From positions 62,001 to 126,000 of the IMG/VR virus record IMGVR_UViG_3300025137_000014: a stretch of 64,000 nucleotides of DNA; one strand, 5' to 3'. The notes below the pieces were generated by a model, which worked only from the letters and a program-made list of their open reading frames with translations, did not search any database and was not told where the DNA came from. This stretch comes from a virus. Position numbers and translations under genes: made by a program. Positions 3,175 to 3,320 of the stretch are shown one piece after another; within the stretch, counting starts at the first letter, position 1; each line of letters begins with the position of its first letter.

Positions 3175-3203
3175 TTGACAAGGCTTTCTGATAATGTTAT
3201 TAT
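3175..3203 (+). promoter_or_regulatory. Sigma70-type promoter TTGACA-17-TATTAT
   Basis: TTGACA at 3175-3180 and TATTAT at 3198-3203 are separated by exactly 17 bases. Predicted transcription starts near 3209-3210. The only thing directly downstream is the hairpin-rich non-coding stretch that ends at 3320, so the promoter probably drives a small RNA and, by read-through, the genes from 3339. Confidence 0.75.
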
Positions 3204-3214
3204 AGAGTCATAAT

Positions 3215-3268
3215 AAAGATGCAAAGTGTCTCCTCTCAACCTCTCTCATCTAACTGAGCATCTTTTTT
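3215..3268 (+). terminator. Hairpin with T-run, large loop
   Basis: Eight-base-pair stem AAAGATGC/GCATCTTT (3215-3222 and 3258-3265) followed by Ts to 3268. The 35-base loop is too large for an efficient terminator, so this may instead be the structured body of the small RNA. Confidence 0.4.
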
Positions 3269-3292
3269 ATTCTCACACAGAGAGCAACATCA

Positions 3293-3320
3293 AGCCCGGC
3301 ACCCTGTGTCGGGCTTTTTT
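3293..3320 (+). terminator. Intrinsic terminator
   Basis: AGCCCGGCAC (3293-3302) pairs with GTGTCGGGCT (3306-3315) over 10 pairs including one G-U, with loop CCT, and runs into six Ts (3315-3320). A strong rho-independent terminator. Confidence 0.85.

Follow-up and report, generated by a model that had tools for sequence, protein, structure and literature searches.

A conserved small RNA gene with a predicted anti-Shine-Dalgarno loop in uncultured marine T4-like phages

The locus and the predicted RNA

The window studied here is a stretch of 64,000 nucleotides (GC 35%), positions 62001-126000 in a virus record of 187,122 bases (hereafter the 187-kb record). Its genes, among them those for an SbcC-like gp46, a tail sheath and a tail tube protein of T4 type and a ribonucleotide reductase, are those of a T4-like tailed phage. 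Our particular interest is a short region of the plus strand that lies between two small open reading frames (ORFs). Its upstream neighbour is gp46, the SbcC-like recombination nuclease subunit, which runs from a TTG start at 905 to 2725; then comes a conserved ORF of 58 amino acids (2991-3167), immediately 5' of the RNA, while immediately 3' of it lies an ORF of 66 amino acids (3339-3539) belonging to an FLKKGGK-type family. The RNA is single-copy in the 187-kb record. Elsewhere in the window, two more near-perfect promoters sit between genes on the minus strand, at 6682-6710 and 4963-4991 (TTGACA-17-TATAAT and TTGACT-17-TATAAT), and a lone tRNA gene at 58650-58723 is the sole Rfam gathering match.

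The predicted unit opens with a sigma70-type promoter (3175-3203, TTGACA-17-TATTAT), which agrees with the consensus at 11 of 12 positions and carries the TG of an extended -10 element, and it closes with an intrinsic terminator (3292-3320) that consists of a GC-rich stem of 11 pairs (3292-3316) plus a T run. Taking the start from the -10 element and the end from the terminator gives a predicted small RNA of about 110 nt (3210-3320), very much as a preliminary description of this DNA had proposed when it pointed to a near-consensus promoter, only about 110 bases and then a strong terminator. The predicted RNA folds with a minimum free energy of -33.3 kcal/mol, compared with -17.2 kcal/mol for dinucleotide shuffles (z -5.6), and none of 200 shuffles was as good.

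Hairpin 1 (3210-3270) pairs 3210-3227 with 3253-3270 and presents a loop of 25 nt (3228-3252), which is fully unpaired in the fold and holds both TCTCCTCTC and CCTCTCTC. The earlier picture of a pyrimidine-only loop on the first stem is right except in composition, since in the near-invariant core, UGUCUCCUCUCAACCUCUCUCA (3227-3248), which is complementary to AGGAGACA and GAGAGAGGUU, an AA stands between two C/U blocks. Hairpin 2 (3271-3283; UCUC-ACACA-GAGA, four pairs in the folding of the window RNA) had been overlooked in that description, and equivalents with changed sequence were found by inspection in homologues. Its purine side is complementary to the loop too, and an internal kissing interaction or pseudoknot between the two is possible. 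In addition, a purine linker, CAACACAGAG(AG)CA, is conserved 3' of hairpin 1 at 3275-3290 and in the type A homologues introduced below; it is likewise complementary to the loop, with which it might kiss internally.

A conserved RNA family of marine phages

Homologues were collected from IMG/VR contigs in two rounds, first with a loop pattern of 14 bases and next with a core pattern of 16 bases; in this pattern-fetched set the invariance of the core is true by construction, so that loop conservation is judged only on the loci retrieved by the gp46 protein or by the neighbouring 58-aa protein, which together provide an unbiased test. About 50 distinct homologues from uncultured marine phages fall into three types, which we call A (that of the window), B and C. 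Essentially all have the same type of promoter at a fixed spacing to the loop, and the stems vary in sequence, with compensatory changes, around a near-invariant loop, UGUCUCCUCUnAACCUCUCUCA. The RNA is present in 27 of the 28 gp46-fetched loci that reach far enough and whose gp46 identity is at least 67% (fuzzy matching detected it in 26 and inspection in L030, several of these positive loci being near-copies of one another; L005 and L012 end too early to be counted). At gp46 identities of 60% or less it appears in none of 50 loci, several of which lie on short contigs.

The type B loop reads UCUCCUCUAAACCUCUCUCA, and the type C loop, uncovered at the same genomic place through the loci fetched with the 58-aa protein, reads UACCCUCU[CU]AACUCUCAUUAC. 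A few loci (L016-L018 and L030) have CU insertions in the loop, and in L027, 3' of gp46, the hairpin is kept with a loop that has degenerated to a C/U sequence, UUACCAUUCUCUCUAACUGAU, while the gp46 leader is still GAGAGAGGUA. Type B RNAs often carry an extra conserved 3' region, GGGUUAGACCUUAACGUACC...AAAAAGCACAAAAAGG, which in the type B loci L028, L029 and L195-L246 reads GUGGGUUAGACCUUAACGUACCAC...AAAAAGCACAAAAAGG and lies about 60-180 nt past the loop; in many members this domain, which has no Rfam counterpart, is placed between hairpin 2 and the terminator. The type C loci L289, L301, L302, L303 and L323 sit downstream of the 58-aa gene, and in most of them a fresh promoter comes next.

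The fold is maintained throughout. In all 46 distinct homologues of types A and B, 12-26 pairs enclose the loop and no more than three letters of the core are paired, and the fold loses strength when homologues are given each other's 3' flanks, going from -16.1 to -10.0 kcal/mol in type A and from -16.9 to -12.4 kcal/mol in type B. Pair counting gives 93% (A) and 91% (B) standard pairs, and the covariation score, which lies far above slid controls, was matched by one of 500 shuffles for type A and by none of 500 for type B, the type A pair and covariation analysis being made on a length-matched subset. MAFFT followed by RNAalifold on all type A sequences yielded no structure, because type A stems differ in length, and this approach was replaced by per-sequence folding with the flank swap and by the length-matched subset. 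The hairpin structure is under selection, and the RNA is a conserved family and not a product of chance.

A terminator follows in 48 of 50 distinct homologues, compared with 5 of 300 random windows, and these terminators are unrelated in sequence while near-constant in presence. The preliminary description had named conservation of the promoter, the CU loop and the terminator in relatives as a check, and all three are indeed conserved, the loop across the gp46-selected loci. The gene on the 3' side, by contrast, varies: it belongs to the family of about 60 aa with FLKKGGK in types A and C, encodes an 80-aa membrane-like protein in type B, and L030 and L114 have other genes again. In L114, in L027 and in the majority of type C loci, a strong promoter stands past the terminator and ahead of this next gene; in the window, the 66-aa gene begins about 24 nt past the terminator with no intervening promoter, so that read-through into it is possible. 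A conserved promoter and terminator beside a downstream gene that is not conserved is what marks a stand-alone small RNA gene, and we infer that the RNA is expressed as such a unit.

Ribosome sites and predicted targets

Phages that bear the RNA typically use AGGAGA and GAGAG(G) as ribosome sites, and the loop includes UCUCCU and CCUCUCUC. Of the leaders in the 187-kb record, 17% contain AGGAG, 8.5% GAGAG and 3.3% GAGAGG, which bears out the usage originally claimed for this DNA, as does gp46, cited then for a GAGAGG site, where AGAGAGGT precedes the TTG start. Three leaders on the plus strand of the window may serve as examples of predicted targets. The gp46 ribosome site AGAGAGGU (891-898, before TTG 905) would pair with ACCUCUCU of the loop, and the tail tube site AGGAGACA (32746-32753, before ATG 32759) would pair with UGUCUCCU; the other candidate leader (52914-52974) combines a strong promoter, TTGACA-16-TATTAT, with an AGAGAGG site ahead of ATG 52975, where a gene of 140 aa with no assigned function begins.

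For the first two of these, the relatives speak consistently. GAGAG, usually as GAGAGAGGUA, is found in the gp46 leader of all 21 distinct RNA-bearing relatives listed, although in most relatives this leader overlaps the end of the upstream gene and part of its conservation could be coding; L030, whose upstream sequence is different, is one of these 21, and none of the distinct gp46 leaders in a more distant gp46 set contains it. Among ortholog clusters from ten genomes, tail tube (z -6.4) and gp46 (z -4.7) gave the lowest pairing energies relative to shuffled loops, and the tail tube leader matches AGGAGACA in full in four of five orthologues, with a G-U variant in the fifth. Duplexfold energies with long internal loops were too noisy to be used. 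These two genes are the most consistent predicted targets.

Promoters offer a further hint. The window's record holds 39 promoters that agree with the consensus at 11 or 12 of 12 positions, mostly intergenic, compared with 11-18 in shuffles, and an AGAGAG leader follows such a promoter at 26-33 nt in seven cases. GAGAG sites are associated with strong promoters (pooled OR 2.0, p 0.005, a statistic that ignores homology and the testing of ten genomes), and the association is nominally significant singly in three type A genomes among the ten tested. By analogy with T4 biology, these strong promoters are probably early. We also observed a class of short genes, mostly of unassigned function, with a strong promoter, a very short leader and an AGAGAGG(TT) site (for example, at 52914-52974 in the window and at 380-416, 3510-3571 and 10080-10139 in L247), which may constitute an early regulon.

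Genome-wide, the picture is less clear-cut. In the window phage, 18 genes match the loop, compared with 14.3 +/- 4.6 for shuffled C/U loops, and 169 of 1000 shuffles score as high, so that loop-matching ribosome sites are not in excess, and the excess seen in type B rests largely on homologous genes. Ribosome-site statistics set against relatives that lack the RNA looked strong initially, but T4 has as many GAGAG sites and HTVC008M has them rarely, so the contrast may reflect lineage, and we do not regard such statistics as decisive proof of pairing given T4, HTVC008M and the shuffled loops. Type C is without UGUCUCC, yet its phages keep AAGGAGACA sites. The suggestion that the RNA damps early phage messages is plausible: the complementarity of gp46 leaders and the preference of GAGAG for strong promoters favour it, whereas the equal showing of shuffled loops and the GAGAG sites of T4 do not. 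Seen as a test of the anti-Shine-Dalgarno class, complementarity holds across orthologues for the gp46 and tail tube leaders, with no genome-wide excess over shuffled loops.

Comparable known RNAs, competing explanations and a proposed role

Rfam returned no gathering-score match for the RNA in the window or in ten homologue loci, and the best sub-threshold match was RF02278, at 27.6 bits against a gathering score of 50, with UGUCUCCU and a terminator in common. What a blastn search of INPHARED phage records gave was limited to short, unrelated fragments, the terminator among them, and the 18-base core has no exact match in 84,980 bacterial and archaeal species represented by one genome each. 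Eleven bacterial-genome matches to a looser core have no consistent promoter-hairpin context and look like chance. The RNA has thus been seen only in phages and is apparently a small non-coding RNA that has not been described before.

Two bacterial groups nevertheless share its design. The NfeR1/alpha-r14 (cuckoo) small RNAs of Alphaproteobacteria have a sigma70-type promoter and display an ultraconserved anti-Shine-Dalgarno motif, CCUCCUCCC, unpaired in hairpins with highly variable stems, and they silence mRNAs through pairing at the translation start (PMC10746234). The phage RNA resembles them in its promoter type and in its invariant loop on sequence-variable stems; it differs in that CCUCCUCCC occupies three hairpin loops in those chromosomal RNAs, whereas here a single hairpin, found only in phages, carries UCUCCUCUnAACCUCUCUC with UCUCCUCUCAACCUCUCUC. 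The Burkholderia double-hairpin RNAs of RF02278 are chromosomal and 57-92 nt long, with three to five of them in each genome, and their exposed C/U stretches could base-pair with ribosome sites; the family owes its name to toxicity in E. coli, where growth is attenuated when one member is overexpressed (PMC4603805, PMC5688073). An unpaired C/U stretch of this kind, an identical UGUCUCCU and a GC-rich terminator are shared with the phage RNA, which differs in its larger loop, its extra hairpin and its one copy, and whose covariance score is below that of a family member. Judged by these features, it fits the anti-Shine-Dalgarno design of both groups, but by sequence it belongs to neither. A phage precedent is the c4 antisense RNA of P1 and P7: according to a 2025 review of phage-derived small RNAs, its loops base-pair where ribosomes bind a phage mRNA, making c4 antisense to one ribosome site, and a search of that review by term met Shine-Dalgarno only in connection with the target of a host small RNA (PMC12197685). 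Whereas c4 serves one dedicated temperate-phage target (ant mRNA), here a generic anti-Shine-Dalgarno loop occurs in T4-like phages.

What else might such a loop do? One answer, which we think unlikely but worth taking seriously, is that its C/U single strand is a decoy that, during infection, ties up an RNA-binding protein of host or phage origin and so alters the activity of that protein. Rho, which prefers YC dinucleotides, would be one candidate, and S1, a cold-shock protein or a phage repressor would be others. A core that is more conserved, central AA included, than loose Shine-Dalgarno pairing needs would suit a decoy, as would target complementarity that does not exceed that of shuffled C/U loops and the tolerance of CU insertions (L016-L018, L030), such as a repeated binding motif might show; but near-perfect pairing partners recur in orthologous genes, no specific protein is implicated, and NfeR1, with the same design, acts by pairing (PMC10746234). 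Pairing with a ribosomal RNA would also explain a near-invariant loop, yet it is hardly credible, since the best match to E. coli 16S, 23S or 5S rRNA is 8 nt, just what shuffled loops lead one to expect.

Two further explanations were weighed. The loop might mainly shut off host messages with AGGAGA-type sites, in keeping with the strong, host-type promoter and with the reported toxicity in E. coli of the related-design RF02278 RNAs (PMC4603805, PMC5688073); this seems improbable to us, as phage genes, tail structural genes included, carry the complementary sites and do not avoid them. Alternatively, the RNA could form the 5' leader for the 66-aa gene that starts at 3339, with a conditional terminator and possibly a leader peptide, since that gene follows so closely with no promoter between, and inspection of types A and B reveals a putative frame, NTG TCT CCT CTN AAC CTC TCT (M-S-P-L-N-L-S), which starts with NTG and whose sole variable position is the wobble base of a Leu codon. 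We regard such a cis-acting attenuator as very doubtful. The CU insertions of L016-L018 and L030 break the frame, which in type C has no start codon (again by inspection), and on these grounds we rejected the leader peptide; moreover, the frame has no Shine-Dalgarno sequence, gp46-selected loci conserve its remaining wobble sites, and the downstream genes differ, with a promoter of their own past the terminator in L027, L114 and the majority of type C loci.

That this is a conserved RNA gene with its own promoter, fold, loop and terminator is near certain, and an anti-Shine-Dalgarno mechanism is likely on the sequence evidence. The explanation that we favour, with reasonable though far from complete confidence, is that the loop of a stand-alone RNA pairs with purine-rich ribosome sites and so blocks phage messages, and possibly host ones. 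Coming from a host-type promoter, the RNA would probably be made early in infection. A variable, base-paired stem would present a loop that hardly varies and that imitates the anti-Shine-Dalgarno end of 16S rRNA, reaching beyond it, with ACCUC / CUCC common to both; the first C/U block would pair with AGGAGACA sites and the second with GAGAGAGGU(U) sites, preventing ribosome binding on a set of messages. The best candidates are the tail tube gene, gp46 and several of the short genes that follow a strong promoter. Expression, early timing, action in trans, pairing and repression are predicted from sequence, and because genome-wide matching is no better than for shuffled loops and T4 has GAGAG sites as well, anti-Shine-Dalgarno pairing is the best inference and the targets are predictions. 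A bolder idea, which we put forward only tentatively, is that this family, through mimicry of the 16S tail, times the translation of phage genes marked by GAGAGAGGU or AGGAGACA leaders, gp46 foremost, and is an RNA counterpart of RegA, the translational repressor of T4.

Little is known of the regulatory RNAs that lytic phages use, and this one is without a match in INPHARED. What the family offers is a conserved, well-delimited RNA whose loop is precise, which comes in three natural variants and for which targets have been ranked, so that control of phage translation by a ribosome-mimicking RNA becomes testable, and the homologue set can serve as the seed for a new RNA family. In these uncultured marine T4-like phages, the RNA probably restrains protein synthesis in the course of infection.
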